Shown piece after piece: positions 336-20,544 of a stretch of DNA of 64,000 nucleotides. The translations under genes were made by a program, and so were the position numbers. Source of the DNA: Billgrantia desiderata. Lineage in GTDB: Bacteria; Pseudomonadota; Gammaproteobacteria; Pseudomonadales; Halomonadaceae. Under the pieces are notes generated by a model. It worked only from the letters and a program-made list of their open reading frames with translations. It did no database searches and was not told the origin of the DNA. Each line of letters opens with the position of its first letter. Within the stretch, counting starts at the first letter, position 1. Where the stretch lies: assembly GCA_011742915.1 (NCBI GenBank), contig JAAQTN010000013.1, forward strand, positions 49,508-113,507, written 5' to 3'.

Positions 336-1304
336 TCAGTCGATCATGCCGGCTTCCTGGAACAGCGCCCGGTAGCGCTCCTGCTCGCGCTGGTAGTACT
401 CGGCGCTCTCCTCGGCCCCCATGAACGTCGGGATCAGGCCGTTGTTCTCGACGTACTCCTGGGTCCACTTGTCGGTTTCCGCAGCGGCACGGAAGACGTC
501 CTCCCAGAACTCGACGGCCTCCTCGGGCATGTCGGGCGGGCCGGCATAGCCACGGAAGATCATCAGTTCGAGGCCTTCATAGCCCAGCTCGTCGAAGGTC
601 GGCACCTCGTCGAAGGGAGCGTCGAGGCGCTCCTCCGAATAGGTGGCCAGGAAGCGCACCATGCTCTGGTCGACCCGCGAGCCCAGCTTGAAGATGGCCG
701 CATCGATATGGCCGCCCAGCAAGGCGGAGGTGACGTCGCCGGTGCCGTCGAAGGGCACGTACTGGAAGTCGACGCCCAGGTTGTCGTCGAGCATGGCGAA
801 GGCCAGGTGGTCCTCGCCGCCGCGACCGGCCCCACCAACGGTGATGCCGCCCGGGTCCTGCTCGGCGCGCTCGATCAGGTCGTCGAGATTCTCGATGTCG
901 CTCTCGGCCCTGACCCCGACGAACAGCGTGTCCAGCGACAGCGTGGCGAGCGGTGTGAGATCGTCGAGCTGCACCGAGGCGTCGTTGACCACCATGCTCA
1001 TCATCTGACCGCCGTTGAAGGTCGTGATGGTATGGCCATCGCCGCGCTTGCTGTAGGTATAGCTGTTGCCTACCGCACCGGAGCCGCCGGGGCGGTTGTT
1101 GATCAGAATGTTGCGGTTGACCATGCCGGTCTCGCGAATCGCTTCGACCAGCATGCGTGCGTTGATGTCGCTGCCGCCGCCGGCGCTATATGGCACCACG
1201 AACTCCACGTTGCGCTGCGGCTCCCAGGCATGGGCGCCGCCAACCAGCGCCAGGCAGAGCACTCCGCAGAGTGCGGTCTTGCCGACCATCACTGTTTTCG
1301 TCAT
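336..1304 (-). CDS. tctC: Tripartite tricarboxylate transporter substrate-binding protein, TctC/Bug family
   Basis: This is a periplasmic receptor (322 aa) of a Tct-type carboxylate importer. The start MTKTVMVGKTALCGVLCLALVGGAHA is a clear signal peptide with an AHA-W cleavage site. The ATG at 1304 is chosen over an upstream in-frame codon because the signal peptide begins there and GAGAG lies just before it. The mature protein opens with the Bug signature VEFVVPYSAGGGSDINARM, whose PYSAGGGSD loop binds a carboxylate group. It continues through an RPGGSGAVG loop to a C-terminal FMGAEESAEYYQREQERY helix. It is followed by tctB. A perfect palindromic operator lies about 110 bases upstream (1415-1432). 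The locus suggests an acid-sugar or related carboxylate as ligand, but this cannot be read from the sequence. Confidence 0.92.
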   Translation of the reverse strand: MTKTVMVGKTALCGVLCLALVGGAHAWEPQRNVEFVVPYSAGGGSDINARMLVEAIRETGMVNRNILINNRPGGSGAVGNSYTYSKRGDGHTITTFNGGQMMSMVVNDASVQLDDLTPLATLSLDTLFVGVRAESDIENLDDLIERAEQDPGGITVGGAGRGGEDHLAFAMLDDNLGVDFQYVPFDGTGDVTSALLGGHIDAAIFKLGSRVDQSMVRFLATYSEERLDAPFDEVPTFDELGYEGLELMIFRGYAGPPDMPEEAVEFWEDVFRAAAETDKWTQEYVENNGLIPTFMGAEESAEYYQREQERYRALFQEAGMID

Positions 1305-1414
1305 CTCTCGATCACCCTGTTGTCGTTGTCGGTTCAGAAGCCATCGCCAAGACATGGCGGCAACTGGCGTATTCACGGGCACGGTCGGATGGGCGTCTCC
1401 TTCCGCTTAAAAAT

Positions 1415-1432
1415 AATTATGAACTCATAATT
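1415..1432. promoter_or_regulatory. Palindromic operator A, probable GntR-family site upstream of tctC
   Basis: The sequence AATTATGA-AC-TCATAATT is a perfect inverted repeat with 8-base arms and a 2-base spacer. It sits in the 176-base gap between tctC and the lysR gene. Closely related sites occur at 4995, 7605 and 13248, the last in front of a GntR/FCD regulator. Assignment to that regulator is an inference from this distribution. Confidence 0.7.
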
Positions 1433-1480
1433 CATTTCATCAACGTCGACTTTGGTCTAGCCGCGGCGAGTGACAGCGCT

Positions 1481-2440
1481 TCAGGCAGGGCGCGGCACGC
1501 TCGGTCTGGCGGATGCCACCTGCCGGCGCAGCTCCGTCACCAGCTCGGCGGCGGCGCTGGAGAGCGGTTCGCGCTTGCGGGTGATGATGCCGTAGTAGTC
1601 CAGCGGCTTGCCGATGGTCAGCGGCAGTACCGCGTACTGGCCGCTGGACAAGGGACGCTTGAGCACCGACCAGGGCAGCACCGCCAGCATCGGCGCGTTC
1701 AGCAGCAACTGCAGGGTGGTCTGGGTCGAGGTGGTCTCGATGGTATCGTCGGGCGAGGCGATGCCGGCGTCGGCCAGCGCGGCCTCGATGACCTGGCGCA
1801 TGGGGCTGGTGGGCGGGTGCAGGACCCACGGCCAGTGGCGCAGCGCCGCGAGCTCGACCCGCTGCTGGCCGGCCAGAGGATGATCGTGAGCCACCACGAC
1901 GCGCAGCGGCTCCTCGAGCAGCGGCTCGAAGTCGAACAAATTGTGTTGATTCACCGCCGTGAGCCGGCCGATCACCAGATCGAGCTGCTTGTATTCGAGG
2001 GCCTGCAGCAGACGATCGCTGCTCTGCTCGTCGATGCTGACCGACAGCCGCGGCCGCTGTCGCTTGAGGGCGGCAATGGCCGCCGGCAGGATCTCGGGGG
2101 CGGCCGCCGGGATGGCGCCGATCAGCAGCCTCCCGTAGCCGCCCTCGCGCATGCGCTGGACGTCCTCGACCATGCGCTCGATGTCATTGAGCAGGATCTC
2201 GGCGTGCCTCACCAGCTGAGCCCCCAGCTCGGTCGGCACCATCGCCCGCGGCTGGCGCTCGAAGATGGCAAAACCGAAATGGGTCTCCAGGTCGCGCAGC
2301 ATCTTGCTCGCCGCCGGCTGGCTGAGGTGCATGTGCCGGGCGGCGGCGCGCATGTTGCGGCGCTTGTCGAGGTGGATCAGCAGCAGCAGGTGCTTGAAGC
2401 GCATCCAGCCGCACAGGCCGGCCGATGACAGTTTGTCCAC
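1481..2440 (-). CDS. LysR-family transcriptional regulator
   Basis: This is a 319-aa LysR-type regulator. The N-terminal winged helix-turn-helix (about residues 14-70) includes NMRAAARHMHLSQPAASKML and then the usual linker helix. The effector domain carries IGAIPAAAPEILP at its start and resembles the pectin/aromatic-degradation (GbpR/PcaQ-like) branch. Translation appears to start at a GTG at 2440, with AGAGGG upstream; an internal ATG at 2404 is an alternative. It lies 82 bases downstream of the HIBDH gene on the same strand and could be co-transcribed or have its own promoter at the 2461-2484 inverted repeat. Its targets are probably the adjacent tct or dehydrogenase genes (inference). 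Confidence 0.88.
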   Translation of the reverse strand: MDKLSSAGLCGWMRFKHLLLLIHLDKRRNMRAAARHMHLSQPAASKMLRDLETHFGFAIFERQPRAMVPTELGAQLVRHAEILLNDIERMVEDVQRMREGGYGRLLIGAIPAAAPEILPAAIAALKRQRPRLSVSIDEQSSDRLLQALEYKQLDLVIGRLTAVNQHNLFDFEPLLEEPLRVVVAHDHPLAGQQRVELAALRHWPWVLHPPTSPMRQVIEAALADAGIASPDDTIETTSTQTTLQLLLNAPMLAVLPWSVLKRPLSSGQYAVLPLTIGKPLDYYGIITRKREPLSSAAAELVTELRRQVASARPSVPRPA

Positions 2441-2460
2441 GTTTTCCGGCCCTCTGATAA

Positions 2461-2484
2461 CCTATGTCGATCAACCAACATAGG
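2461..2484. promoter_or_regulatory. Inverted repeat upstream of lysR, possible autoregulatory box
   Basis: CCTATGT and ACATAGG form perfect 7-base arms around a 10-base spacer. The repeat lies 21 bases upstream of the GTG start of the LysR gene. The spacing suits a LysR-type box, but no second copy was found in the window. Confidence 0.45.
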
Positions 2485-2522
2485 CGCTGCTGCCAGCGGG
2501 AGCAACCACGCCTTCGCCGCCG

Positions 2523-3419
2523 TCAGGCGTCGTGACTGCCGAGCAGACCGATCAGTTCGGGGAGCGTGGCCTGGGCATGCCCCGCCGCCTCGGCCTGCCC
2601 CAGCACCTCGTCGATACCTGCCGCGGCCACCTTCGCCGCCCCCAGGTCGCCGGCCATGGCCAGGTAGTAGCCGAGATCCTTGTGGGCGTTGGCGATGCTG
2701 AAACGGAAGCCCGAGGTGTCGCGCTCCTGAATGTAGGGCCGCAGCCGCTCGAGCACGGTGCCCGCCCCGCCGCCCTTGGCCAGCACGTCGACGAAGACCT
2801 CCGGGTCGATGCCGCCCCGCTCGGCGCATGCCGCCGCCTCGGCCAGCACGGTGGAGAACCCCACCGAGACGAAGTTGTGCAGCAGCTTGAGCTGATGGCC
2901 GGCACCCACCGGGCCGGCATGGGTGATGTTCTCGGCGAAGCTCTCGAGCAGCGGCCGCTGCGCCGCGAACAGCTCGGCATCGCCCCCCACCAGCAGATTG
3001 AGCCGCCCCTCGGCGGCCTCCTTGGGCGTGCGCGTCATGGGGGCGTCGAGAAAACGTCCGCCCGCCTCCGCCACCGCCTCGGCGATGCGCAGCGTCGAGC
3101 TGGGAATCGCCGTGGAGCAGTCGATGATCACGCTACCGGGCCTGAGCCCCTGCAGCACGCCATCCTCGCGCAGCAGCACCTCCTCGACCTGGGGCGAGCC
3201 GGTCACGCAGAGAATGATGACGTCGGCATGCCGGGCCAGCTCCGCCCCCGTGGCGAACGCCTGCGCCCCGTTCTCGAGCAGGGCAGCAACGGGCTGGTTG
3301 CCGGGGTGCTCGAGAAAGGCCAGCGGCCAGCCGGCGCGCTGAACGTTGGTGGCGATGCCGTGGCCCATCAGGCCGATGCCGATCATGCCCACTCGCTGTT
3401 TCGACTGCGTGTCGCTCAT
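2523..3419 (-). CDS. NAD(P)-dependent oxidoreductase, 3-hydroxyisobutyrate dehydrogenase family
   Basis: This is a 298-aa beta-hydroxyacid dehydrogenase. The N-terminal Rossmann motif VGMIGIGLMGHG (about residues 11-22) binds the dinucleotide. The substrate loop reads DAPMTRTPKEAAEGRLN, where most relatives have D-A-P-V-S-G-G, so this belongs to a distinct subfamily. The catalytic lysine is in GHQLKLLHN. The family reversibly oxidises 3-hydroxyacids such as 3-hydroxyisobutyrate, tartronate semialdehyde/glycerate or threonate. The ATG at 3419 lies 1 base after the stop of the aldehyde dehydrogenase, so the two genes are translationally coupled. A GTG at 3431 is a possible alternative start. 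A close paralogue with the same TRTPKEA substitution lies at 48679-49566, also behind an aldehyde dehydrogenase. The substrate is unknown. Confidence 0.88.
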   Translation of the reverse strand: MSDTQSKQRVGMIGIGLMGHGIATNVQRAGWPLAFLEHPGNQPVAALLENGAQAFATGAELARHADVIILCVTGSPQVEEVLLREDGVLQGLRPGSVIIDCSTAIPSSTLRIAEAVAEAGGRFLDAPMTRTPKEAAEGRLNLLVGGDAELFAAQRPLLESFAENITHAGPVGAGHQLKLLHNFVSVGFSTVLAEAAACAERGGIDPEVFVDVLAKGGGAGTVLERLRPYIQERDTSGFRFSIANAHKDLGYYLAMAGDLGAAKVAAAGIDEVLGQAEAAGHAQATLPELIGLLGSHDA

Positions 3420-3420
3420 G

Positions 3421-4935
3421 TCACAACCCACCCATGCAGAGATACTTGATTTCGATGTAGTCCTCGATGCCGTACTTGGAGCCCTCCCGCCCGATACCGG
3501 ACTCCTTGACGCCGCCGAACGGGGCCAGCTCGCTGGAGATGATGCCTTCGTTGATGCCCACGATGCCGCACTCCAGGGCCTCGGCCACCCGCCACACCCG
3601 GCCCACGTCGCGGGTATAGAAGTAGCTGGCCAGGCCGTATGGGGTATCGTTGGCCAGGCGCACCACCTCCTGCTCGTCGCTGAAGCGCAGCAGCGGCGCC
3701 ACGGGACCGAAGGTCTCCTCGTTCATCAGCCGCGCATCGCTGGAGACGTCGGTGAGAATCGTCGGCTCGAAGAAGTTGCCGCCCAGCGCATGTCGCTGCC
3801 CGCCCAGGTAGACGCTGGCACCGCGCTCGCGGGCATCAGCGATGTGCTCCTCGACCTTGGCCACCGCGGCCTGATCGATCAGCGGCCCCAGGGTCACCCC
3901 CTCCTCCAGGCCATTGCCGACCCGCTGCGCCGCCACCGCCTGGGCGAGGCGCTCGGCGAAGTCAGCGTAGATCCGCTCGTGGACGAAGATGCGGTTGGCG
4001 CACACGCAGGTCTGGCCGGTGTTGCGGAACTTGGACGCCATCACCCCGGCCACCGCCTGATCGAGATCGGCATCATCGAAGATGATGAAGGGCGCGTTGC
4101 CACCCAGCTCCATGGAGACCTTCTTGACCGTCTGGGCACAGGCAGCGAGCAGCACCTTGCCCACCTCGGTGGAACCGGTGAAGGAGAGCTTGCGTACCAG
4201 CGGGTTGGCGGTCAGCTCGTCACCCACCGTGCGGGCACTACCGGTCACCACATTGAGCACGCCCCGGGGCACGCCGGCGCGCTCGGCCAGCTCGGCCAGG
4301 GCCAGCGCCGAATAGGGCGTGCTGGATGCCGGCTTGACCACCACCGTGCAGCCGGCCGCCATGGCGGCGGCGGCCTTGCGGGTGATCATCGCGTTGGGGA
4401 AGTTCCAGGGCGTGATGGCGGCCACCACGCCGACCGGCTCCTTGGTGACCACGATGCGGCGATCTCCGGCATGGGCCGGGATGACGTCGCCGTAGATCCG
4501 CTTGGCCTCCTCCGCGAACCACTCGATGAAGGCAGAGCCGTAGGCGATCTCACCCCGAGCTTCGGCCAACGGCTTGCCCTGCTCCAGGGTCAGGATACGG
4601 GCCAGATCCTCCTGATGGGCCATGCACAGCTCGTACCAGCGCCGCAGGATGGCGGCTCGCTCCTTGGCGGTCCTGGCCTTCCATTGCGGCAGGGCGCGGT
4701 CGGCCGCCTCGATGGCCTCTCGCACCTGGGCCTGGGTCAGGCGGGGTACGCTACCCAGCCGCGTGTTGCTGGCCGGATCGACCACCTCGATGATTGCCTC
4801 GTCGCTGGCATCGACCCAGCTTCCGTCGATGTAGGCGTGCTGCCTGAACAGCGCCGGGTCCTGCAGCTGCGGCTGCCGACCGCCGATCGCGCTGCGCTTG
4901 TCTCCCATGCCCTCGTCTCCCATATCCTCGCGCAT
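3421..4935 (-). CDS. NAD(P)-dependent aldehyde dehydrogenase, succinate-semialdehyde dehydrogenase (GabD) type
   Basis: This is a complete 504-aa ALDH-superfamily enzyme that oxidises an aldehyde to a carboxylate. The active-site set is visible: ITPWNFP for the cofactor, [10 protein letters not shown], the general base glutamate in SMELGGNAP and the nucleophile in GQTCVCANR. The second cysteine two residues after the nucleophile and the overall pattern resemble GabD-like succinate or 2-oxoglutarate semialdehyde dehydrogenases. The latter end oxidative pentose and acid-sugar routes. The start at 4935 has a strong AGGAGGG site. The gene is the first of a minus-strand unit with the HIBDH gene and is divergent from fucD, sharing operator B (4995-5012). 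The exact aldehyde is unknown. Confidence 0.9.
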
Positions 4936-4994
4936 CTTTCTCCCTCCTCTGCTCGCATCACGGACTGTCTGACGTAGAATGATCTTGAACTTTG

Positions 4995-5012
4995 AATTAT
5001 GAATCCAAAATT
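4995..5012. promoter_or_regulatory. Operator B, GntR-type site in the divergent ALDH/fucD promoter region
   Basis: AATTATGA-AT-CCAAAATT keeps the whole left arm and 6 of 8 right-arm bases of the operator at 1415. It sits 59 bases before the aldehyde dehydrogenase start, within the 271-base gap to fucD. The rest of that gap shows no gene. Confidence 0.6.
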
Positions 5013-5206
5013 AAGAATCATACTTTCGTCGAGAGGAACCCGGACGCGCCGCATCCTCAAGGGCCATGGCAGGCCCTGCAGCGCGAATCGATAACCTCTG
5101 GTTAACGTAGATACGAAAAAAACGATTGGCAGGTTATTGAATTGGCCGCCAGGCTGGGTTGGACAACAAATCTTTACTTCTCTTAGACCTTGCTGGAATT
5201 GTCGCC

Positions 5207-6511
5207 ATGACCACCATCACCCGCCTCGAGGTTCAGGACATCCGCTTTCCTACCTCGCGCTCGCTGGACGGCTCCGATGCCATGAACGCGGCACCGGACT
5301 ACTCCGCCACCTACGTCACCCTGCACACCGATGCCGGAAACGGGCTCAGCGGCCACGGCCTGACCTTCACCATCGGCCGCGGTAACGAAATCTGCGTCAA
5401 GGCCGTCGAGTCGCTGGCCTATCTGATCGAGGGTCGCCGGCTCGACGACATCACCACCGAGATGGGCCGCTTCTGGCGCGAGCTGACCAGCGGCGACAGC
5501 CAGCTGCGCTGGATCGGGCCGGAAAAGGGCGCGATCCACCTGGCCACGGCGGCCATCGTCAACGCCGTCTGGGATCTGTGGGCCAAGACGGAAGGCAAGC
5601 CGGTGTGGAAGCTGCTGGTCGACATGCCCCCCGAGCAGCTGATCCGCTGCCTCGACTTCCGCTTCGTCACCGACGCCCTGACGCCCGAGGAAGCGCTGGG
5701 GTTGCTCCGGCGCAATGCCGCCGGCCGCGCCGACCGTGAGCGGGAGATGCGCGAGCAGGGCTACCCGGCCTATACCACCTCGGCCGGCTGGCTCGGCTAC
5801 GACGACGACAAGGTGCGGCGCCTGGCGCGCGAGGCGCTGGCCGAAGGCTGGACGCACTTCAAGCAGAAGGTGGGCGGCAACCTCGAGGAGGACCGCCGCC
5901 GCGCCCAGATCCTGCGCGAGGAGATCGGCTGGGAGCGCGCCCTGATGATGGACGCCAACCAGATGTGGGACGTCGACGAGGCGATCGCCAACATGCGCCA
6001 GCTGGCCGAATTCGATCCGCTGTGGATCGAGGAGCCGACCAGCCCCGACGACATCCTCGGCCACGCCGAGATCCGCCGCCGGCTGGGCTCGATCGGGGTG
6101 GCCACCGGCGAGCACTGCCACAACCGGGTGATGTTCAAGCAGCTGCTGCAGGCCGGCGCCCTCGACTACTGCCAGGTCGACGCCGCCCGTCTCGGCGGGC
6201 TGAACGAGGTCATCGTGGTGCTGCTGCTGGCCGCCAAGCATGGCGTGCCGGTCTGCCCCCACGCTGGCGGCGTCGGGCTCTGCGAGTACGTGCAGCACGT
6301 CTCGCTGTTCGACTATATCGCCGTTTCGGGCTCCCTCGAGGGGCGCATCCTCGAGTACGTCGATCATCTGCACGAGCACTTCTTGCACCCCGTGACGATC
6401 CGCAACGGCCGCTATCAGGTGCCGACCGCCCCCGGCTACAGCATCAGCCTCCACCCCGAGTCGCTGTCGCGCCACGCCTATCCGGACGGCGCCGCCTGGC
6501 AGGACGGCTGA
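5207..6511 (+). CDS. fucD: L-fuconate dehydratase-type enolase-superfamily enzyme
   Basis: This is a 434-aa mandelate-racemase/muconate-lactonising subgroup enzyme that dehydrates an aldonate to a 2-keto-3-deoxy acid in the cytoplasm. The metal and acid/base residues fit Xanthomonas FucD: lysines 219 and 221 in FKQKVGG, Asp249 in DANQMW, Glu275 in WIEEPTS, Glu302 in TGEHCH and His352 in CPHAGG. Each is one residue after the number I recall for FucD. The N-terminal capping domain includes TLHTDAGNGLSGHG. The ATG at 5207 is chosen because it begins the conserved MTTITRLEVQDIR; an in-frame extension to 5159 looks non-coding. The lactonase-like gene at 11580 would supply the aldonate. L-galactonate or another 6-carbon aldonate remains possible. 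Confidence 0.85.
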   Translation: MTTITRLEVQDIRFPTSRSLDGSDAMNAAPDYSATYVTLHTDAGNGLSGHGLTFTIGRGNEICVKAVESLAYLIEGRRLDDITTEMGRFWRELTSGDSQLRWIGPEKGAIHLATAAIVNAVWDLWAKTEGKPVWKLLVDMPPEQLIRCLDFRFVTDALTPEEALGLLRRNAAGRADREREMREQGYPAYTTSAGWLGYDDDKVRRLAREALAEGWTHFKQKVGGNLEEDRRRAQILREEIGWERALMMDANQMWDVDEAIANMRQLAEFDPLWIEEPTSPDDILGHAEIRRRLGSIGVATGEHCHNRVMFKQLLQAGALDYCQVDAARLGGLNEVIVVLLLAAKHGVPVCPHAGGVGLCEYVQHVSLFDYIAVSGSLEGRILEYVDHLHEHFLHPVTIRNGRYQVPTAPGYSISLHPESLSRHAYPDGAAWQDG

Positions 6512-6533
6512 CCCACTGCGAAGGAGACCCAAG

Positions 6534-7550
6534 ATGACCCACGCAAGACCCTGCATCGCCGTACCTCTGGGCGACCCGGCGGGCATCGGCCCCGAGCTGG
6601 TCGCCAAGCTGCTGGCCGAGCGCCAGGCAATCGATGGAGCCGACGTGGTGGTGGTGGGCGACCCCTGGCTGTGGCAGGAAGGCCAGCGAGTGGCCGGCAC
6701 TGCGCTCACGCTGCCCGAGATCGCCTCCTGGGAGCAGGCCCGCGGCCAGGCCGGCCCCGTACTGCTACCGCTGGACACCATCCGGCCAGAGGAGGTCGAG
6801 TTCGGCCGGGTCGATGCCGCCTGCGGCGCCTCGGTGCTGAAGGTGCTGGCCCACTGCCTGGACGCCGCCCAGGCGGGACGCATCGATGCCATCTGCTTCG
6901 CGCCGCTCAACAAGCTGGCCATGAAGCAGGGCGGCCTGCGCCATGAAGACGAGCTGCACTTCTTTGCCGAATACCTCAAGGTGCCCGGCGAGGTGTCCGA
7001 GTTCAACACCCTCGGCAGCCTCTGGACCTCGCGCATCTCCTCCCACGTACCGCTCAGCGAGGCCGCCCGCTACGTCACGCCGGAGCGCATCCTGAACGCC
7101 ACCCGCCTGATCCACGACGCCCTGGTGGCAGCGGGTGTGGCGCAGCCGCGCATCGCCGTGGCGGCGATCAACCCCCACGCCGGCGAGGGCGGCACCTGCG
7201 GTCGCGAGGAGATCGACGTCATCGCGCCGGCCGTCGAGGCCTGTGTCGCCGCCGGCTATCCGGCCCAGGGCCCCTTCCCCGCCGATACCCTCTTTCGCCG
7301 CGCCCGCGACGGCGAGTTCGACGCCGTCGTCACCATGTACCACGACCAGGGCCAGATCGCCCTCAAGCTGCTGGGCTTCGAGCGCGGCGTCACCGTTCAG
7401 GGCGGGCTGCCGATTCCCATCACCACGCCGGCCCATGGCACCGCCTTCGACATCGTCGGCCAGGGCAAGGCCAGCGTCGAGGCCATGCGCCACGCCTTCG
7501 CCATCGCCTGCCGCATGGGCGCGCATCATGCCCGCAACCGCGGCGTTTAG
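6534..7550 (+). CDS. PdxA-family dehydrogenase (4-hydroxythreonine-4-phosphate dehydrogenase-like)
   Basis: This is a 338-aa member of the PdxA family of metal- and NAD-dependent enzymes, which oxidise a beta-hydroxy acid and often decarboxylate it. Recognisable parts are the N-terminal PLGDPAGIGPE, AINPHAGEGG with the metal-binding histidine, and MYHDQGQIALKLLGF with the second metal-binding histidine and aspartate. The C-terminal PAHGTAFDIVGQGKA completes the fold. It follows fucD by 22 bases with a strong AAGGAGA site, so it is in the same operon. Genomic PdxA copies for vitamin B6 normally sit near surA/ksgA. This catabolic setting instead suggests a PdxA2-like role on an acid-sugar intermediate. 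It could be the oxidation step after FucD, for which no short-chain dehydrogenase is present (inference). Confidence 0.85.
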   Translation: MTHARPCIAVPLGDPAGIGPELVAKLLAERQAIDGADVVVVGDPWLWQEGQRVAGTALTLPEIASWEQARGQAGPVLLPLDTIRPEEVEFGRVDAACGASVLKVLAHCLDAAQAGRIDAICFAPLNKLAMKQGGLRHEDELHFFAEYLKVPGEVSEFNTLGSLWTSRISSHVPLSEAARYVTPERILNATRLIHDALVAAGVAQPRIAVAAINPHAGEGGTCGREEIDVIAPAVEACVAAGYPAQGPFPADTLFRRARDGEFDAVVTMYHDQGQIALKLLGFERGVTVQGGLPIPITTPAHGTAFDIVGQGKASVEAMRHAFAIACRMGAHHARNRGV

Positions 7551-7604
7551 CCGACTTGAACTGAGGCGCAGCGATAGGTAGACGAAAGTCTGAGGCATAA
7601 AATG

Positions 7605-7622
7605 AATTATGTGTTCATAATG
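7605..7622. promoter_or_regulatory. Operator C, GntR-type site upstream of the TRAP operon
   Basis: AATTATGT-GT-TCATAATG matches 7 of 8 bases in each arm of the operator at 1415. It lies in the 130-base gap between the pdxA-like gene and dctP, 58 bases before the dctP start. Confidence 0.65.
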
Positions 7623-7670
7623 AAATTTGCACAGCGCTCATTGAAGCCTCTATCAGACAACAAAATGGAG

Positions 7671-7678
7671 AACAACAA
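7671..7678 (+). promoter_or_regulatory. A-rich AACAACAA element between ribosome-binding site and dctP start
   Basis: AACAACAA lies directly between GGAG and the ATG at 7681, so it overlaps the translation initiation region. It fits the AANAANAA pattern bound by Hfq (with Crc in pseudomonads) in catabolite repression of transporter mRNAs. Whether this host uses that mechanism is not known. Confidence 0.4.
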
Positions 7679-7680
7679 TT

Positions 7681-8730
7681 ATGAGACACGCCACCAAACT
7701 CCTGTGTACCGTCACCGCTACGGCGCTATTCAGCCCGCTCGCCTTGGCGCAAAGCTATGAAGCCACGCTGGCTCACCCGCACCAGAACTATGGCGTCAAG
7801 GCCGCGGAAGCCTTCAAGGCGCATATCGAGGCCGCCACGGATGGCGATTTGACCATCAATCTGGTGCGTCACGGCGCCTTGGGTGGCGACCGTGAAATCA
7901 CCGACCAGCTTCGGCTCGGCGAGCTGGAGTTCAATCTGCCCGGTGCAGGTGGCATCGCCAGTATCTTCCCGCACGCTCAGGTGCACAGCTGGCCCTTCCT
8001 GTTTACCGAGCGCAGCGTTTTCTGGAAGCTGCCGCAGGATCCCGAGTATTTCCAACTGACACGCGACGAATTGCTGGATGCCAGCGGTGGCACCATGCGT
8101 CTCCTGGCACTGATGGAGAACTCGATTCGCCACCTCTATACCACCCGCGGCCCGATCCAGACGCCCGATGACATGCAAGAGCATGCCATCAAGATGCGCA
8201 CTCAGGCCGTTCCGCTGCACCAGGAGCTGTTCGAAGCCCTAGGAGCGGCTCAGATCGTCACGGTCTCGGCGCCGGAGCGCTATTCGGCGCTCCAGAGCGG
8301 CTTGATCGACGGTCTGGAAGGCGGCCTCTCATCCGCCTGGGACGCCGGGCTGATGGAGGTGGCCGACTATGTCTCGCTGACCGGCCACATGTATGAATAT
8401 CTGTGGCTGGTGGCCAACAACGACTTCTACGAAAGCCTGCCCGAGGAGCACCGCCAGGCCGTGGACGAAGCCGCCATCATTGCCACAGCCACCAGCAACG
8501 CGATCAGTTATCAGGACGACAACGAGGCGCTGGTGAAAATGGAGGAGGCCGGCAAGACGATCTACGTACCCACTGCCGACGAGCTGAATCAGTGGCAGGA
8601 AATCGCCGTGCCGGCGGCCCGTGCCTTCATCGAGGAGGAAGTCCCGGCGCCCTATGTCGAGGCGACACTGGCGGCACTGGAGCGAACCCAGGAGCGCGTT
8701 GCGGGCATAAAGAGCTCCGCGTCCGACTGA
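7681..8730 (+). CDS. TRAP transporter substrate-binding protein, DctP family
   Basis: This is a 349-aa periplasmic solute receptor. The signal peptide MRHATKLLCTVTATALFSPL ends near LAQS. The mature part starts with the DctP pattern (YEATLAHPHQNYGVKAAEAF), followed by GALGGDREITDQLRLGELEF. The carboxylate-binding arginine is expected in IKMRTQ, within the conserved core that runs on to ALQSGLIDGLEGG. TRAP receptors feed DctQ/DctM membrane subunits that use an ion gradient to import organic acids, often sugar acids. The gene begins an operon with dctM, dctQ, a HIBDH enzyme and a lactonase-type amidohydrolase. A GntR-type operator and an A-rich leader lie upstream. A hairpin at 8753-8779 separates it from dctM. 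Confidence 0.93.
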   Translation: MRHATKLLCTVTATALFSPLALAQSYEATLAHPHQNYGVKAAEAFKAHIEAATDGDLTINLVRHGALGGDREITDQLRLGELEFNLPGAGGIASIFPHAQVHSWPFLFTERSVFWKLPQDPEYFQLTRDELLDASGGTMRLLALMENSIRHLYTTRGPIQTPDDMQEHAIKMRTQAVPLHQELFEALGAAQIVTVSAPERYSALQSGLIDGLEGGLSSAWDAGLMEVADYVSLTGHMYEYLWLVANNDFYESLPEEHRQAVDEAAIIATATSNAISYQDDNEALVKMEEAGKTIYVPTADELNQWQEIAVPAARAFIEEEVPAPYVEATLAALERTQERVAGIKSSASD

Positions 8731-8752
8731 ATCCCGCTGCGGATTCGCCACG

Positions 8753-8779
8753 GCCCCTCTCCTTGCTCCGGAGAGGGGC
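8753..8779 (+). repeat. Intercistronic hairpin between dctP and dctM
   Basis: GCCCCTCTCC and GGAGAGGGGC form a 10-base perfect stem with a 7-base loop, 22 bases after the dctP stop. No T-run follows, so it looks like an mRNA-stabilising or attenuating structure that raises receptor expression relative to the membrane subunits. Confidence 0.6.
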
Positions 8780-8808
8780 GGCTCTCTTGACGGCGTTTAG
8801 GAGTCCTC

Positions 8809-10104
8809 GTGATAGCCGTACTCATGCTCGCCGCCCTCGTCGGGCTCATCATCATCGGGGCACCGGTCTTCATGGCCATGGCCGGCGCTTCGCTGATTCA
8901 CTACTGGGACACCGGCCGCGAGGCCACCATGAACATTCTCACCCTGAGGATGTTCGACGGCATGACGTCCTTCACTTTCCTGGCCATTCCACTGTTTCTG
9001 CTGGCCGGTGAGATCATGTCCCGCGGGGGCCTCACCGACCGCCTCATGGACCTGGCCAGGGCATTGGTCGGGCACTTCAAGGCTGGGCTGGCTCAGGTAA
9101 ACATCGCCTCCAGCCTTTTCTTCTCCAGCATTTCCGGCTCGGCCTATGCCGACGTGGCCGCCATGGGGCCGGTGATGATTCCCGCCATGCAAAAGGAAGG
9201 GTATCCGAAGGGCTTTGCCGGGGCGCTCACCGCCGCCTCGGCCACGCTGTCGCCGCTGTTTCCACCGAGCATCGTGTTGATCGTGTACGGCTCGGCGTTC
9301 GGCGTTTCCATCGGTGCGCTGTTCGCCGCCGGTCTGACCTTGGCCCTACTCCTGACGCTACTGTTCGCCGTGACCAGCTACGCCATGGTCTGGCGCTACG
9401 GAATACCCGCCTATGGCTGGATGGGATTTCGGGAGATGGGTCGTGCCTTTCTCAAGGCCGCCATCCCGCTGGGTATGCCAATCATCGTGGTGGGCGGCAT
9501 TCTCGGCGGATTCTTCACCGCCACCGAAGCCGCTTCGGTGGCAGTGGCCTATGGATTGGTGGTCACCATCGGCATCTATCGCACCATTCGGCCGGCCGAT
9601 CTCATTCCGATTCTACGCCAGACGGCCATCACCAGCGCCGCGATCACCATCCTGGTCGGCGTGGCGGCGATGTTTTCCTATGTCGTGGTGCGACGTAACA
9701 TTCCCACCCAGGTGGTGGACTTCCTGCTGCAGATCACCCAGTCGCCGTTCGGCATCGTCGCGCTGATCGTGCTGGTACTGCTGATCGCCGGCATGTTCAT
9801 CGACCGCAACTCCAACCTGCTCCTACTTGGCCCGATCATCATCCCTATTTTCACCATGGAGCTTGGCTTCAGCGACGTACAGACGGCAATGATCATCATC
9901 TCCGCCTTGGGTGTTGGCCACCTCACGCCACCTTTCGGCGGTACCCTGCTCACCGCCTCACTGGTAGGTCGCATGTCGGTGGCGGAAATCAGTCGCTTTG
10001 CCTGGCCGTTCATTCTGATCAAGATCCTGTTGACCGCCCTGGTCGTGGCATTCCCCGCCCTAAGCGAGGCACTTCCTCGCGCACTCGGCTTCGGAGGACT
10101 CTGA
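8809..10104 (+). CDS. TRAP transporter large membrane subunit, DctM family
   Basis: This is a 431-aa multi-spanning permease of the DctM type with about 12 hydrophobic segments. Typical family stretches are FTFLAIPLFLLAGEIMSRGG, SGSAYADVAAMGPVMIPAM, LSPLFPPSIVLIVYG, GGFFTATEAASVAVAYG and LGVGHLTPPFGGTLL. Translation starts at a GTG (8809) behind AGGAG. The gene order is P-M-Q, with the large subunit before the small one, unlike the P-Q-M order of the second TRAP operon in the window. It acts in the inner membrane with the DctP and DctQ subunits encoded on either side. The substrate is probably an acid sugar or its lactone-derived acid, judged from the catabolic neighbours. Confidence 0.93.
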   Translation: MIAVLMLAALVGLIIIGAPVFMAMAGASLIHYWDTGREATMNILTLRMFDGMTSFTFLAIPLFLLAGEIMSRGGLTDRLMDLARALVGHFKAGLAQVNIASSLFFSSISGSAYADVAAMGPVMIPAMQKEGYPKGFAGALTAASATLSPLFPPSIVLIVYGSAFGVSIGALFAAGLTLALLLTLLFAVTSYAMVWRYGIPAYGWMGFREMGRAFLKAAIPLGMPIIVVGGILGGFFTATEAASVAVAYGLVVTIGIYRTIRPADLIPILRQTAITSAAITILVGVAAMFSYVVVRRNIPTQVVDFLLQITQSPFGIVALIVLVLLIAGMFIDRNSNLLLLGPIIIPIFTMELGFSDVQTAMIIISALGVGHLTPPFGGTLLTASLVGRMSVAEISRFAWPFILIKILLTALVVAFPALSEALPRALGFGGL

Positions 10105-10105
10105 T

Positions 10106-10654
10106 ATGACATCGTTCACCCGAGCAAGCCTCAGGAAGTGGATCGGGCAACTAGTCCAGGGGATCGACCGATTGGCGCACTGGCTGGACTGGCTATTGCA
10201 GTCGATCCTGGTGGCGGTGCTATCCGCCATCTTTCTGCTCATGTTTGCCCAGGTCATCCTGCGCTACATCATTCACTCCCCGTTCGCCTGGATCGAGGAG
10301 GTGGCAGCCTACATGCTGCCGGTGCTGGCCTTGTGGGGTGCGGCCGTATGCCTACGCCATGGCTCGCATCTCAAGGTGGATCTGTTGCTCGAAGCGCTGC
10401 CGCGCCTGTTACGCAGCGCCTTCGTGATCGCCATTCACCTGCTGATCTTCTATTTCGCAATGAAGGTGTATCAATCCGGCCATGCCTTGGTCGAGCTGGG
10501 ACGCAACGAGATGGTCACCAGCCGCACCTTCTCTCTTTATTGGCCCCGCATGACCATCGTCATCGGCGGCGCGCTCATCATGTTCCAGTCGGCGGTCATG
10601 GTCCTTCGAGAGATTGCCGACCTGGCGGGGTACGACCTGAAACCCACCACTTGA
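10106..10654 (+). CDS. TRAP transporter small membrane subunit, DctQ family
   Basis: This is a 182-aa small TRAP permease subunit. It has four hydrophobic helices, including the LLQSILVAVLSAIFLLMFAQ and VAAYMLPVLALWGAAVCLRH regions. The family signature is the FAWIEEVAAYML-to-RHGSHLKVDLLLEALP stretch. It starts 1 base after the dctM stop with GGAGGA inside the end of dctM, so translation is probably coupled. It is followed by an HIBDH-family gene after 17 bases. Confidence 0.92.
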   Translation: MTSFTRASLRKWIGQLVQGIDRLAHWLDWLLQSILVAVLSAIFLLMFAQVILRYIIHSPFAWIEEVAAYMLPVLALWGAAVCLRHGSHLKVDLLLEALPRLLRSAFVIAIHLLIFYFAMKVYQSGHALVELGRNEMVTSRTFSLYWPRMTIVIGGALIMFQSAVMVLREIADLAGYDLKPTT

Positions 10655-10671
10655 TACACAGGAGAAGCGAC

Positions 10672-11568
10672 ATGGCAGCAACGCAATGTATCGGCTTCAT
10701 CGGCCTTGGCAAGATGGGTAGCGGCTTCGTGTCGCGGCTGATCGACGAAGGCTATGCCGTGGTCGGCTACGACATCGAAGCGGCTCACTGCGAAGCGGCA
10801 AAAGCCCGCGGCGCCGAGATCGCCGGCTCGCCGGCCGCCGTGGCCGCACGTGCCGATCTCATCCAGATCTGCGTGACCACCAGCGCCGCCGTGGAGGCGG
10901 TGGTGCTCGGAGAGAACGGCATCGCCGAGGTCGCTCAGGACGGCGGCAAGGTCGTGGTCGATCACTCCACCACGGAGCTGGAGACCACCCGGCGCCTGGC
11001 AGCGGAGCTCGAGCGGCGCAACGGCATGGCGTTCGTGGATGCCCCGGTGTCCGGTGGGCCCGGCGCCGCCGCGGAAGGTCGCCTGGCCATCATGGCAGGC
11101 GGCACGACAGAGGCCATCGCAGCCGTAACGCCGATCATGGAGCGGCTCGGCCAGTTCACTCATATGGGCGAGGTGGGGGCGGGCCAGGCCACCAAGCTGA
11201 TCAACCAGGCGCTGGTGCTCTCGAACTACTGCGTGATCGCCGAAGCCTGCAACCTCGGCAACCGCTTCGGCATCGACGTGAGCAAGATCCCCGAGGCGCT
11301 CTCCTCGGGCTATGCCGGCAGCAACCTGCTCAACGACCTGCTGCCACGCATGGTGGAGAACGACTTCGAGCCGCGCGGCTATGCGCGCCAGATCCTCAAG
11401 GACCTGCACATGCTGCAGGACGCGGCCAATGCGTTGAACGTCGCCATGCCCATGGCCGGCATGGCCAACTCGCTCTACAGCATGCTGATCGCCCAGGGCA
11501 AGGGCGAACTCGATGGCGCCGCCATCGTGACACTGCTGGAAGACCAAGCGCGACAGGGCAATGCATGA
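10672..11568 (+). CDS. NAD(P)-dependent oxidoreductase, 3-hydroxyisobutyrate dehydrogenase / tartronate semialdehyde reductase family
   Basis: This is a 298-aa beta-hydroxyacid dehydrogenase. It has an N-terminal IGFIGLGKMGSG nucleotide-binding motif and the canonical substrate loop VDAPVSGGPGAAAEG. The catalytic lysine is in GAGQATKLINQ, and the C-terminal all-helical domain is intact. It is more canonical than the paralogues at 2523 and 48679, which have TRTPKEA in the substrate loop. The ATG at 10672 has AGGAGA at good spacing. It sits in the TRAP operon directly before the lactonase-like gene, so it likely works on a 3-hydroxyacid from the imported substrate. The exact reaction cannot be read from the sequence; a GarR-type tartronate semialdehyde reductase is one candidate. 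Confidence 0.88.
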   Translation: MAATQCIGFIGLGKMGSGFVSRLIDEGYAVVGYDIEAAHCEAAKARGAEIAGSPAAVAARADLIQICVTTSAAVEAVVLGENGIAEVAQDGGKVVVDHSTTELETTRRLAAELERRNGMAFVDAPVSGGPGAAAEGRLAIMAGGTTEAIAAVTPIMERLGQFTHMGEVGAGQATKLINQALVLSNYCVIAEACNLGNRFGIDVSKIPEALSSGYAGSNLLNDLLPRMVENDFEPRGYARQILKDLHMLQDAANALNVAMPMAGMANSLYSMLIAQGKGELDGAAIVTLLEDQARQGNA

Positions 11569-11579
11569 GAGGCCATAGC

Positions 11580-12491
11580 ATGAACGACTTTCCGATCATC
11601 GATGCCCATCAGCACTTCTGGGATCTCGAGCGCAACTATCTGCCCTGGCTGTGCGACAAGACGCCCATTCCCTTTCGCTACGGCGACTACAGCGCCATTC
11701 GCCGCAACTACATGCCCGCGGATTATCGCCAGGATACTCGGGGCTTCAACGTGGTCGGCAGTGTGTTCGTGGAAACGGAGTGGGACCCGCGCACGCCGGT
11801 AGCGGAAACCCGCTGGGTGCATGAGCTGGCCGAACGTGAAGGGCTACCGACGGTGATGGTCGCCCAGGCCCGGCTCGACCGGCCCGATGTGGCAGAAGTA
11901 CTGGCCGCCCACTGCGACCATCCGCGCGTGCGCGGCATTCGCCACAAGCCCGCCGCCGCAAGCTCGCCCGACAAGGTGTTCCCCGGCGCCCCCGGCTCGA
12001 TGGGCGACCCGGCCTGGCGGCGGGGTTTCGCCCAGCTTGCAGCCCATGACCTCTCCTTCGACCTGCAGACGCCCTGGTGGCACTTCGAGGAGGCCGCCGA
12101 GCTGGCGGCGTCTTATCCCGAAACCCAGATCGTCATCAACCACACCGGCCTGCCGGCGGACCGCAGCGAAGCCGGGCTCGCCGGCTGGCGCCGGGCGATG
12201 GAGCGAGTGGCCGCCCAGCCCAACGTGGCGGTGAAGATCTCCGGCATCGGCGTGCCGGGACAGCCCTGGAGCGTCGAGGCCAATCGCCGTGTCGTGCTCG
12301 ACACCATCGAGGTCTTCGGCGTCGAACGCTGCATGTTCGCCAGCAACTTTCCCGTCGACAGCCTGGTGGCGAGCTTCGAGACGATCTTCTCGGGCTTCCT
12401 GCGCATCACCGAAGGCTTCACGCCCCAGGAGCGTCGCCGGCTGTTTCATGACAACGCGGTGCGTTTCTATCGCATGTCGCTGGAGCAATGA
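11580..12491 (+). CDS. Amidohydrolase family 2 protein, probable L-fuconolactonase-type sugar lactonase
   Basis: This is a 303-aa TIM-barrel hydrolase of the COG3618 type. The metal-site start IIDAHQHFWDLERNYLPWL is characteristic of L-fucono- and L-rhamnono-lactonases. Further conserved parts are VGSVFVETEW, VRGIRHKP, TQIVINHTGLP, VAVKISGIG and MFASNFPVDSLV, whose final aspartate is catalytic. The ATG at 11580 is used because GAGAGG precedes it; an in-frame ATG at 11565 overlaps the previous stop. A lactonase fits the fucD-type dehydratase at 5207: lactone is opened to aldonate, which is then dehydrated. It ends the TRAP operon and is followed by a hairpin terminator. Confidence 0.85.
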   Translation: MNDFPIIDAHQHFWDLERNYLPWLCDKTPIPFRYGDYSAIRRNYMPADYRQDTRGFNVVGSVFVETEWDPRTPVAETRWVHELAEREGLPTVMVAQARLDRPDVAEVLAAHCDHPRVRGIRHKPAAASSPDKVFPGAPGSMGDPAWRRGFAQLAAHDLSFDLQTPWWHFEEAAELAASYPETQIVINHTGLPADRSEAGLAGWRRAMERVAAQPNVAVKISGIGVPGQPWSVEANRRVVLDTIEVFGVERCMFASNFPVDSLVASFETIFSGFLRITEGFTPQERRRLFHDNAVRFYRMSLEQ

Positions 12492-12503
12492 GCACCAAAC
12501 GCA

Positions 12504-12527
12504 GATGCCACCCCTGGGGGTGGCATC
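12504..12527. terminator. Bidirectional hairpin terminator
   Basis: GATGCCACCCC and GGGGTGGCATC form an 11-base stem around TG. It lies between the convergent ends of the lactonase operon (+) and gntR (-). Confidence 0.7.
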
Positions 12528-12564
12528 TTCGCACTGCGTGGAACGGATGGGGGGTCATCTGGCG

Positions 12565-13218
12565 TTACTCGGCCATCTCCTCCAGCGCCGAGACCTCGAC
12601 CTTGTTGCGCAGGTGGCAGCTCAGGATGCTGCCCAGTTCCTTGCCGTCACGCTTTCTCAGCGCCTCGATCATCGCTTCGTGCTCGCTCACGGCCTGAGAC
12701 CAGTAGTCGCTGCTGAGCTCGGCGGTGAACCGCACCCGGCGCACGCGATGGTTGAGATTCTTGTAGACGTCGATGAGCACCTCGTTCTGCGAGGCGACCA
12801 CGATGGCTTCGTGAATCTGCTGATTGGCCAGCAGGTACTCCTGCATGTTGCCGCTCTTGTAGTGCGCCAGCATCTGATAGTGCAGCGCCTCGATGTTGGC
12901 CAGCTCCGCGTCGGAGATCCGCGCTCCGGCCAGCTCGCCCGCCAGGGCCTCGAGGCTCTGCATCACTTCGAAGGTGTTCTTCAACGTGGTGCGGGTCAGC
13001 TTGGCGACCCGCGCGCCCCGATTGGGCAGCAGCTCGACGAAGCCTTCGTGAGCCAGCACCTTGAGTGCCTCGCGCAAAGGGGTACGGGAGACGCCGAACT
13101 GTTCGCACAGCTGTTTTTCGGGAACCCGGCTGCCGGGGGCCAACACGCCCTGCGCGATCAGATCGCGCACCCTTTCCGCCACCTCACCGTGGAGCGTACT
13201 CTGCCTGATCTTGTCCAT
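12565..13218 (-). CDS. GntR-family transcriptional regulator with FCD ligand domain
   Basis: This is a 217-aa regulator. The N-terminal winged helix (about residues 1-75) contains VPEKQLCEQFGVSRTPLREA, the recognition helix typical of FadR-subfamily GntR proteins. The FCD domain follows, with its helices (TFEVMQSLEALAGELAG) and metal/ligand-binding histidines, including ANQQIHEAI and LSCHLRNKV. Such proteins usually repress acid-sugar or organic-acid genes and are released by a pathway intermediate. An AATTATG-type operator (13248-13265) lies about 30 bases upstream of its start, which suggests autoregulation. Related sites at 1415, 4995 and 7605 make it the probable regulator of the whole first region (inference). 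Confidence 0.9.
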   Translation of the reverse strand: MDKIRQSTLHGEVAERVRDLIAQGVLAPGSRVPEKQLCEQFGVSRTPLREALKVLAHEGFVELLPNRGARVAKLTRTTLKNTFEVMQSLEALAGELAGARISDAELANIEALHYQMLAHYKSGNMQEYLLANQQIHEAIVVASQNEVLIDVYKNLNHRVRRVRFTAELSSDYWSQAVSEHEAMIEALRKRDGKELGSILSCHLRNKVEVSALEEMAE

Positions 13219-13247
13219 TGGACTTCACTTCTATAACGAATAAATCT

Positions 13248-13265
13248 AATTATGCATTCAAAAAA
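13248..13265. promoter_or_regulatory. Operator D, GntR-type site upstream of gntR
   Basis: AATTATGC-AT-TCAAAAAA keeps 7 of 8 left-arm bases of the operator at 1415 and the TCA and two AA positions of the right arm. It overlaps the expected promoter of the GntR gene that starts at 13218. Confidence 0.55.
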
Positions 13266-13288: not shown

Positions 13289-13336
13289 CTCTCAGCCCGC
13301 CACTCAACCCTCCTCTCAGCCCGCCACTCTCAGCCC
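13289..13336. repeat. Short tandem direct repeat between gntR and glcC
   Basis: CTCTCAGCCCGCCACTC occurs at 13289-13305 and again at 13313-13329, with a 24-base period. A partial third copy runs into the glcC stop codon region (13327-13336). It is probably a replication-slippage repeat, with no coding function seen. Confidence 0.6.
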
Positions 13337-14106
13337 CACTCGTCGAGACGCATGGCCGAGCGCTCCAGGCGCTGATCCTCGGCCTCGATCTCGCGCAGCT
13401 GCGCCTCGATGCCGTGAAGGTGATCGAGCGCCGCACGCCGGGCAGCCTGAGGCTTGCCCTCCATCACGGCCCGATAGAGCCGCGCATGCTGACGATTGAT
13501 CATGGCTCGCGGCCTTTCACGATGATAGAGGTTCTTCACCGAGGCGAACACGGAGCTGAGCAGCAGATCGGTCAGCGATTGCAGCGTATGCACCAGCACC
13601 GGGTTGTGCGAGGCCTGACAGATCGCCAGGTGAAAGGCGTGGTCGAGGTGGGCCAGCCGCTCCACGTCTATCGCCTGACCCGCCTCGACGTATTCCGCCA
13701 TCGCCTCGTAGCGACGCTGGATCAGCACCCGATCCGCCGGCGTGGCCCGCTCGGCCGCCAGGCGGGCCGACTCCCCTTCCAGCAACGAACGCACCTCCAG
13801 CAGGTCGTATAGAGTGCGCGGGTGGTCGCGGAAGAGATGCATCAGCGGGCTGTCGTCGCGACCGGCCACCAGTTCGGCCACCACCGAGCCCCGCCCCTGA
13901 CGAGTGACGATGATGCCCTTGCTGCGCAGCACGCGCAGCCCTTCGCGCAGCGAGGTGCGCGACACGCCGAGGCGCTCGCACAGGCGTCGCTCCGAAGGCA
14001 GCAGTTGCCCGGGGCGGAACACGCCGTCGAGAATCATCCGCTCCAGGCGTTCCGCCACCGCATCGGGCGTCAGCGTCGCTGAGACGCGCTCATGTTCCTG
14101 CTGCAT
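13330..14106 (-). CDS. glcC: Glycolate-operon regulator GlcC, GntR/FCD family
   Basis: This is a 258-aa GntR-family regulator that matches Escherichia GlcC closely by eye. Shared stretches are LPSERRLCE, SLREGL, SPLMHLF, RTLYDLL, ALEGESARLAA-like VRSLLEGESARLAA, DHAFHLAICQASHN and TLQSLTDL. The DNA-binding domain covers about residues 10-75 and the FCD domain the remainder. GlcC activates glcDEFG in response to glycolate or acetate in E. coli. Here it is divergent from glcD across a 206-base gap that contains a perfect ACTGGT-CAT-ACCAGT site (14208-14222). The start at 14106 opens directly into MQQEHERVSATLTPDAVAERL. Confidence 0.92.
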   Translation of the reverse strand: MQQEHERVSATLTPDAVAERLERMILDGVFRPGQLLPSERRLCERLGVSRTSLREGLRVLRSKGIIVTRQGRGSVVAELVAGRDDSPLMHLFRDHPRTLYDLLEVRSLLEGESARLAAERATPADRVLIQRRYEAMAEYVEAGQAIDVERLAHLDHAFHLAICQASHNPVLVHTLQSLTDLLLSSVFASVKNLYHRERPRAMINRQHARLYRAVMEGKPQAARRAALDHLHGIEAQLREIEAEDQRLERSAMRLDEWG

Positions 14107-14143
14107 TGGTTCTCCCAGGGTCCACAGGCATGCTTGCTAACCT

Positions 14144-14157
14144 GGCGCTTAAGCGCC
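14144..14157. promoter_or_regulatory. Perfect 14-base palindrome in the glcC/glcD gap
   Basis: GGCGCTTAAGCGCC is fully self-complementary and lies 38 bases upstream of the glcC start. It could be an operator or a structural element; nothing else identifies it. Confidence 0.35.
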
Positions 14158-14207
14158 GTAGCTGCCATGCTGTATCATGAAAATAATTTCCAATATAGCG
14201 CCGAACA

Positions 14208-14222
14208 ACTGGTCATACCAGT
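14208..14222. promoter_or_regulatory. Probable GlcC operator (TGGT-NNN-ACCA type)
   Basis: ACTGGT-CAT-ACCAGT is a perfect inverted repeat with 6-base arms and a 3-base spacer. TGGTNNNACCA is the known recognition core of FadR-subfamily regulators such as PdhR, LldR and GlcC. It is centred about 98 bases upstream of the glcD start, consistent with activation by GlcC. Confidence 0.75.
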
Positions 14223-14312
14223 AGACCGCAGGCTGGACAGGGGGCGTACCAGAGCGCACATTGGGCGCTTGGCGTACGAACCCCCTGCCGCATGACTCGC
14301 AGAGAGGCACTC

Positions 14313-15818: not shown

Positions 15819-15820
15819 CC

Positions 15821-16912: not shown

Positions 16913-16931
16913 GACGCACAGGATTTTCGAC

Positions 16932-18191: not shown

Positions 18192-18223
18192 CCTCTGCGA
18201 ATAGTCGCCCAAGGCGAGGGGCG

Positions 18224-18318
18224 CCGGGGACAGGCCGAAGAGGAGGTCCGATGCCATGGATGGCATCGGTAGCGCCCAGGGATGGGTTCACAGCGCCTCC
18301 TCGCAGGCCTGTCGCCGG
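18224..18318. repeat. 95-base imperfect inverted-repeat element between glcF and glcG
   Basis: The outer arms (18224-18246 and 18296-18318) pair at 19 of 23 positions, around the shared cores GACAGGCC and GAGGAGG. Inside lies a perfect palindrome, CCGATGCCAT-GG-ATGGCATCGG type (18248-18269). The rest of the gap shows no gene. It looks like a dispersed intergenic palindromic element rather than a simple terminator, since no T-run follows. Only one copy is in this window. Confidence 0.6.
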
Positions 18319-18392
18319 AACAGCCCCGTGCTTCACCGGGAGAGCTGCTAGCTCCGCATCGCCAATGTTCTTTATTTCAAAAGGAGAACCCC

Positions 18393-20519: not shown

Positions 20520-20544
20520 AACGATATTCTTCCCTTTTACCCAA

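Follow-up and report, generated by a model that had tools for sequence, protein, structure and literature searches.

Candidate operators of a GntR-family regulator in a catabolic gene cluster of Billgrantia desiderata

Four related palindromes lie in a 64,000-nucleotide stretch of DNA from the halophilic bacterium Billgrantia desiderata (the window), which is part of contig C12 of the 4.89-Mb genome. They are spread over a catabolic gene cluster that encodes three regulators and continues left of the window (locus L005). Which protein reads these palindromes, and what does it do there? An earlier note on this DNA had assigned them to one GntR-family regulator. Our analysis indicates that the sites are very likely operators of this GntR/FCD protein, which would bind them as a dimer and repress the cluster until an inducer releases it. 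The sequences show that the sites exist, that they are conserved and that they occur together with the regulator gene; binding, repression and induction are inferred.

All four sites described in the earlier note were recovered, each starting with AATTATG, and the gene context proposed for them, before tctC, the divergent aldehyde dehydrogenase (ALDH)/fucD unit, the TRAP operon and gntR, was borne out. Three more sites were located left of the window. The sites and their proposed reader are as follows.

1415 to 1432, no strand: putative operator, perfect palindrome AATTATGAACTCATAATT, 0 mismatches at 16 scored positions; upstream of tctC (minus strand)
4995 to 5012, no strand: putative operator AATTATGAATCCAAAATT, 2 mismatches at 16 positions; between the divergent ALDH (minus) and L-fuconate dehydratase-like (plus) genes
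7605 to 7622, no strand: putative operator AATTATGTGTTCATAATG, 2 mismatches at 16 positions; upstream of the TRAP operon (plus)
13248 to 13265, no strand: weaker putative operator AATTATGCATTCAAAAAA, 4 mismatches at 16 positions; upstream of the gntR gene itself
C12:45392, 4.1 kb left of the window: second perfect copy, between ech and the carbonic-anhydrase-like gene
C12:45513: weak site, 4 mismatches, 121 bases beyond C12:45392; before the carbonic-anhydrase-like gene
C12:43176, left of the window: weak site, 4 mismatches; before the second TRAP operon
12565 to 13218, minus strand: GntR-family regulator of 217 amino acids with GntR and FCD domains (PF00392, 69.6 bits; PF07729, 88.3 bits; both over cut-off), the proposed site reader

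The palindrome, AATTATGAnnTCATAATT with ATGAnnTCAT as its main part, is present up to seven times within the 20 kb of the catabolic cluster. Between ech and the carbonic-anhydrase-like gene, a strong and a weak site form a pair (C12:45392-45530, positions 13885-14023 of L005). Their starts were 120-122 bp apart in seven of the nine loci having both, with spacings of 99 in G005 and 113 in G079.

In the window, a search that allowed 3 mismatches gave three matches, whereas 100 shuffles averaged 0.01. Across the whole genome, four places matched at up to 2 mismatches, all inside one 12-kb stretch of the cluster, and allowing 3 mismatches added two places, both on contig C53. The 14-base inner core was unspecific in the whole genome at up to 2 mismatches, with 19 places versus 17 for the reversed control. 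A matrix was trained on 31 sites from eight other genomes, excluding the window's own genome and its three nearest relatives, G009, G031 and G076, and was applied to 82 kb and to 15 out-of-cluster candidate stretches taken from the mismatch searches. The seven cluster sites ranked as the top seven in the 82 kb (35.4, 35.4, 30.3, 26.8, 20.5, 19.5 and 17.4). Random sequences of equal length gave a maximum of 10.0 in 12 trials, a null that reflects overall composition and not A/T-rich intergenic DNA. The site at 13248, scoring 19.5, was weak taken alone. Two further matches in the 82 kb scored 15.7 and 13.1; the first of them overlaps the site in front of the second TRAP operon. Among the 15 out-of-cluster candidates, the best was a C53 place, AATTATTAAGTAAAAATT, which scored 17.8 without the G/C core, and the next scored 14.7. 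The four strong sites thus outscored every candidate examined. Because the C53 place reaches 17.8, score alone does not make the weaker sites specific within the genome, and these need the comparative evidence. Many equally good sites at unrelated promoters, the outcome that the earlier note had named as contrary to its proposal, were not seen in the genome mismatch search or among the 15 matrix-scored candidates. As a separate observation, the 13.1 match (AAATAAGAATTTATTATA, window 20548-20565) lies inside or just past the start of a BCCT-like transporter frame (18879-20645, minus strand) and is probably a chance occurrence.

The comparative evidence came from 12 orthologous loci, the window's own and 11 others. 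With 4 mismatches allowed, they contained 62 sites, all of them outside the tblastn-mapped genes, which cover 72% of the DNA (an overlap of 30 bases was allowed at gene ends). With the matrix at a score of at least 13, one of 72 matches fell within a mapped gene. The 18 bases of the 4995-5012 site were identical in G009 and G076. The sites also accompanied rearranged genes. In the relatives with an inverted ALDH-GarR1 operon (G006, G033, G065, G069, G039 and G059), ALDH had its own site, and in several relatives with a TRAP cassette of another kind (27-39% identity to the window's own proteins), the promoter site and the flanking genes stayed. The columns of the 7605 site had a mean identity of 0.94 in 12 aligned TRAP promoters, versus 0.42 for the whole region (rank 7 of 243 alignment windows). 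In the ech/carbonic-anhydrase region, aligned over eight loci with an overall identity of 0.72, the strong site reached 0.96 (rank 8 of 333) and the weak site 0.83 (rank 48 of 333). No footprint appeared in the tctC upstream alignment, where the site averaged 0.59 (rank 93 of 203); this alignment was probably badly anchored and was not used as support.

The distribution of the sites was then compared with that of the regulator. Of 145 genomes examined, 60 had a GntR relative at E<=1e-30. The window's GntR protein is 99% identical to the Billgrantia ethanolica protein and 94% identical to the B. aerodenitrificans one, and its own genome holds no second member of the lineage, the next best protein being at 36%. 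The same-genus comparison covered 89 genomes besides the window's own, with sites counted at up to 2 mismatches. Every one of the 11 genomes with an orthologue (at least 84% identity) carried 3-6 sites, 41 in total, against 1 for the reversed-pattern control. At least three sites were present in 11/11 of these genomes versus 1/78 of the other same-genus genomes (Fisher 3e-13, ignoring shared ancestry). Where a 54-60% relative was the only one present, 20 of 29 genomes had at least one site (21 sites; control 6), compared with 7 of 49 genomes with neither protein (10 sites; control 7), a difference with a Fisher value of 1.5e-6 that again ignores shared ancestry. Two of these seven are accounted for: G024 is an 85%-complete assembly with contigs carrying other cluster genes, and in G001 the palindrome precedes the gene of a 46% relative. 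The hold-out genomes named Litchfieldella, Vreelandella and Aidingimonas (L081, L088 and L089) contained 2, 2 and 3 sites, respectively, at up to 4 mismatches.

Palindromes were also found upstream of related gntR genes. We applied a strict test to 70 distinct GntR relatives, asking for a GAnnTC palindrome in the 600 bases that precede the gene. It was present in 23/23 distinct proteins examined from the 55-60% clade (for which the genome search gave 34 genes), in 13/13 of a halomonad clade at 43-48% and in the single Aquamicrobium protein (1/1). Other relatives at 37-45% had none within these 600 bases (0/10). The alphaproteobacterial Aurantimonas loci (L090 and L092-L096) likewise had none within 600 bases (0/6), and the same palindrome stood about 3 kb from gntR, before a class-V aminotransferase gene, in 6/6 of them (about 6685-6930). 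The third-clade site is TTTTGAATTCAAAA, without CATAAT. The second gntR clade in relatives was seen to adjoin glycolate-oxidase-type genes together with aminotransferase, CoA-transferase and TRAP genes.

Among the three regulators of the cluster, GntR alone was present in all 12 genomes. A single GntR reader fits best, given how sites and regulator are distributed across genomes, the palindromes that precede related gntR genes and the absence of LysR or GlcC from some genomes; on this point our results agree with the earlier note. Judged from sequence comparison, the sites very probably make up a real, conserved regulon under a single regulator. The GntR dimer, or possibly a tetramer, would bind the palindrome at up to seven cluster sites. 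Its targets would be the ech/CoA-transferase genes, the carbonic-anhydrase-like gene, tctCBA, the ALDH/fucD-like genes, the TRAP operon, the second TRAP operon and its own gene. Four promoter-like matches were found in 12.2 kb, where 1.7 were expected, and two of them have their predicted -10 box, CATAAT, inside the 1415 site (1421-1416, minus strand) and the 13248 site (13254-13249, minus strand). Since two operators contain a predicted -10 box, repression by blocking RNA polymerase seems likely, with the bound protein covering the box at tctC and gntR. A carboxylate or sugar-acid intermediate in the FCD domain would then release GntR and switch on uptake and breakdown. A looped tetramer is also possible, given the spacing of roughly 121 bp in the pair of strong and weak sites.

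The same two -10 boxes suggest another reading, in which the AATTATG arm is a bare -10 element and no operator exists. However, conservation extends to the second arm, and it is the gene-distal arm that is intact in the tctC promoters of G006, G033, G069 and G039. Site number also tracks the GntR regulator across genomes, and the third-clade site has no CATAAT. The bare element is accordingly a very unlikely explanation of the whole, and was rejected on arm conservation, regulator co-occurrence and the CATAAT-free site. Another regulator of the cluster might instead read the sites, given that the LysR (1481-2440) and GlcC (13330-14106) genes both lie in the cluster and adjoin sites. This is extremely improbable. 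At E<=1e-60, LysR was not matched in G059 or G065 (12 genomes searched), which keep the sites and GntR, and in G069 it had a 51% match only, elsewhere in the genome. GlcC had no match in G059 (12 genomes searched), where the sites and GntR are again kept, and it lay away from the locus in G069, G039, G005 and G079. The palindrome core, moreover, also precedes distant gntR genes. LysR and GlcC were both rejected as site readers, as they are missing from genomes that retain the sites.

GntR itself might act as an activator, or as repressor and activator depending on the promoter. In the ech/carbonic-anhydrase region, the weaker site stands directly before TTGACG, a possible -35 box judged by eye in the alignment. 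A precedent is found in HypR, a six-helix FCD protein whose deletion lowers one promoter, although its authors, in the available part of their report, hold that effect to be indirect (PMC6608401). HypR represses most of the targets tested in the same account (PMC6608401), and Atu1419 of Agrobacterium fabrum is described, in the part of the report available, as a repressor with palindromes overlapping -10 boxes (PMC7797058). With predicted -10 boxes inside the tctC and gntR sites as well, an activating or mixed role is unlikely.

Several observations weigh against the GntR protein as the reader of these sites. The site upstream of gntR is the weakest. It was present at up to 4 mismatches in 11 of the 15 orthologue loci, and no such site was found at that threshold in the gntR promoters of G069, G005, G079 and L081. 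The strict GAnnTC test was passed by 6 of 15 orthologues, and the window's own gntR site fails it; two relatives at 49-50% (L111 and L112) had no upstream palindrome (0/2). The genomes are related, so the Fisher values overstate independence. One site each was counted in five genomes of the genus that have no close relative (G010, G044, G062, G067 and G084), and in paralogue-only genomes the counted site is sometimes away from the paralogue (G075 and G066). Part of the arm conservation may stem from the -10 box CATAAT. Finally, the comparison of candidate readers was limited to the three regulators encoded in the cluster, GntR, LysR and GlcC.

The genes that the GntR regulator would control, and their neighbors in the window, are listed below.

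336 to 1382, minus strand: TctC receptor of a tripartite tricarboxylate transporter (Pfam TctC); the true start may be further in
1481 to 2440, minus strand: LysR-family regulator (Pfam)
2523 to 3431, minus strand: GarR1, a dehydrogenase like 3-hydroxyisobutyrate/tartronate-semialdehyde reductase (Pfam; below NCBIfam cut-offs)
3421 to 4935, minus strand: ALDH of the succinate-semialdehyde dehydrogenase type (Pfam; above NCBIfam cut-offs)
5207 to 6511, plus strand: enolase-superfamily acid-sugar dehydratase near L-fuconate dehydratase (phmmer)
6534 to 7550, plus strand: PdxA-like dehydrogenase (Pfam, NCBIfam)
7681 to 10654, plus strand: TRAP operon DctP-DctM-DctQ (DctP from PDB matches; DctM and DctQ named from translations and gene order)
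10669 to 11568, plus strand: second GarR-like dehydrogenase (Pfam; below NCBIfam cut-offs)
11565 to 12491, plus strand: amidohydrolase, distant from L-fucono-1,5-lactonase (Pfam; NCBIfam 108.7 bits against a cut-off of 400)
13330 to 14106: GlcC-type regulator (382.7 bits to the NCBIfam GlcC model)

Left of the window, tctB and tctA come after tctC (Pfam TctA, TctB). The cluster there also includes a class-V aminotransferase, a second TRAP system, CoA-transferase III, enoyl-CoA hydratase (ech), a hexapeptide (gamma-carbonic-anhydrase-like) protein and an FAD-linked oxidase. The extent proposed in the earlier note, two transporters and about eight enzymes, was consequently too small, and the second TRAP, CoA-transferase, enoyl-CoA hydratase and carbonic-anhydrase-like genes should be added to it. 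The cluster probably serves uptake and breakdown of an acidic sugar. An L-fuconate-like substrate is suggested by the dehydratase, the one enzyme of the cluster that points at L-fuconate; its phmmer matches were 4a35 (E 7e-181), 4ip4 and then the L-fuconate dehydratases 2hne/2hxt/1yey (E about 2e-168). The assignment would give a regulator and an operator to a so far unassigned cluster for a sugar acid or hydroxy acid, equipped with three transporters, and it predicts which genes should be co-induced. Beside the GlcC-type gene, frames in 13330-18794 look, by their translations, like glycolate oxidase genes.

A halomonad sub-clade of the regulator (L141, 9404-10185, with L142, L143 and L144) has VSPTPLRQ in place of VSRTPLRE, that is, Arg45 to Pro and Glu50 to Gln. 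Its four members all have a GGAATTCC-centred palindrome upstream (4/4), which none of the 66 other relatives has. This palindrome reads AATTCGGAATTCCAAATT, with at most one base changed. A search of the 90 genus genomes that allowed 2 mismatches found it in five, namely the four Pro45 genomes and one whose match is a TTTTGAATTCAAAA site. The Arg45 to Pro change was probably one event, because three of the four proteins are 74-89% identical to the fourth. It is possible, and we suggest it tentatively, that an FCD-GntR lineage of halomonads and Aurantimonas has kept a GAnnTC operator, not GTnnAC, in three clades, that the operator went from TGAATTCA to GGAATTCC in the sub-clade with Arg45 to Pro (and Glu50 to Gln), and that paired sites about 121 bp apart are bridged by a tetramer. 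If this is true, the Pro45 sub-clade is a natural experiment in the change of GntR DNA specificity. Clades with matched operator and recognition-helix changes could test the GntR DNA-reading code with few proteins, and one of them lacks the arginine essential in Atu1419.

Atu1419, an FCD-GntR protein of the VanR group, is the closest comparison in mechanism, without any claim of orthology. In the available part of its description, it binds the 10-bp operator ATGTATACAT through helix-3 contacts of Ser44, Arg45, Thr46 and Arg49, with Arg45 reading the essential G3 (PMC7797058). The window's GntR has the same four residues at the same positions, and its operator has G at position 3. One symmetric position differs, position 4 being T in ATGTATACAT and A in ATGAnnTCAT. 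The palindromes of Atu1419 overlap -10 boxes, as predicted for the sites described here, and a strong and a degenerate palindrome are 109 bp apart, not far from the spacing of our pair. However, its degenerate palindrome lies inside a gene, whereas our weak site lies between genes, and Atu1419 controls hydroxycinnamate genes, unlike this cluster. N132, H136, H180 and H202 of the window's GntR were invariant in 21 proteins and may be the FCD metal ligands (Asn or Asp plus three His), by analogy with what that source describes (PMC7797058). The length of 217 amino acids is only suggestive of the VanR group, with its six-helix effector domain.

The FadR subfamily has the palindromic consensus NyGTM-N0-1-KACNy, TKGT/ACMA, in the available text of PMC4494728. 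Our sites share with it an A/T-rich palindrome and a conserved G/C pair at the same spacing, but their core is GAnnTC rather than GTnnAC. In the matrix, the core G has a frequency of 0.96 and the next base is A at 0.82 and T at 0.16, so that the GT/AC consensus is not followed. The earlier note was correct that the operator differs from TGGTNNNACCA, but it is less odd than was implied, being close to ATGTATACAT of Atu1419. Pro47 and Asn66, which by hand alignment to FadR would correspond to positions 40 and 59 of the residue code in the accessible part of PMC4494728, fit T/A at site positions 6/14. However, this T/A is shared by five 55-60% relatives that carry Arg35 (code position 28), and the GGAATTCC clade combines Pro47 with G/C there. 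The published code seems only partly borne out by these sequences, and its positions 28 and 40 do not appear to hold across relatives.

The window's GntR fell below the equivalog cut-offs of GlcC (64.3 bits against 301) and of phnR_burk (TIGR03338; 102.6 against 271.5) in NCBIfam. A literature text search for AATTATGA or ATGAATTCAT with GntR, and for TGAATTCA with FCD, returned nothing related; the motif may already be listed in RegPrecise or in the supplements of PMC4494728 and PMC5507952. In Halomonas HL-48 and HL-93, the available part of PMC5507952 predicts AraR2, GguR and other GntR regulators over TRAP or Tct transporters with sugar-acid enzymes. This is the same type of regulon, GntR over TRAP/Tct transport and sugar-acid enzymes, with gene sets that differ in that part. 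The probable regulon described here would be a new one of an ordinary known kind, with a mildly unusual operator.

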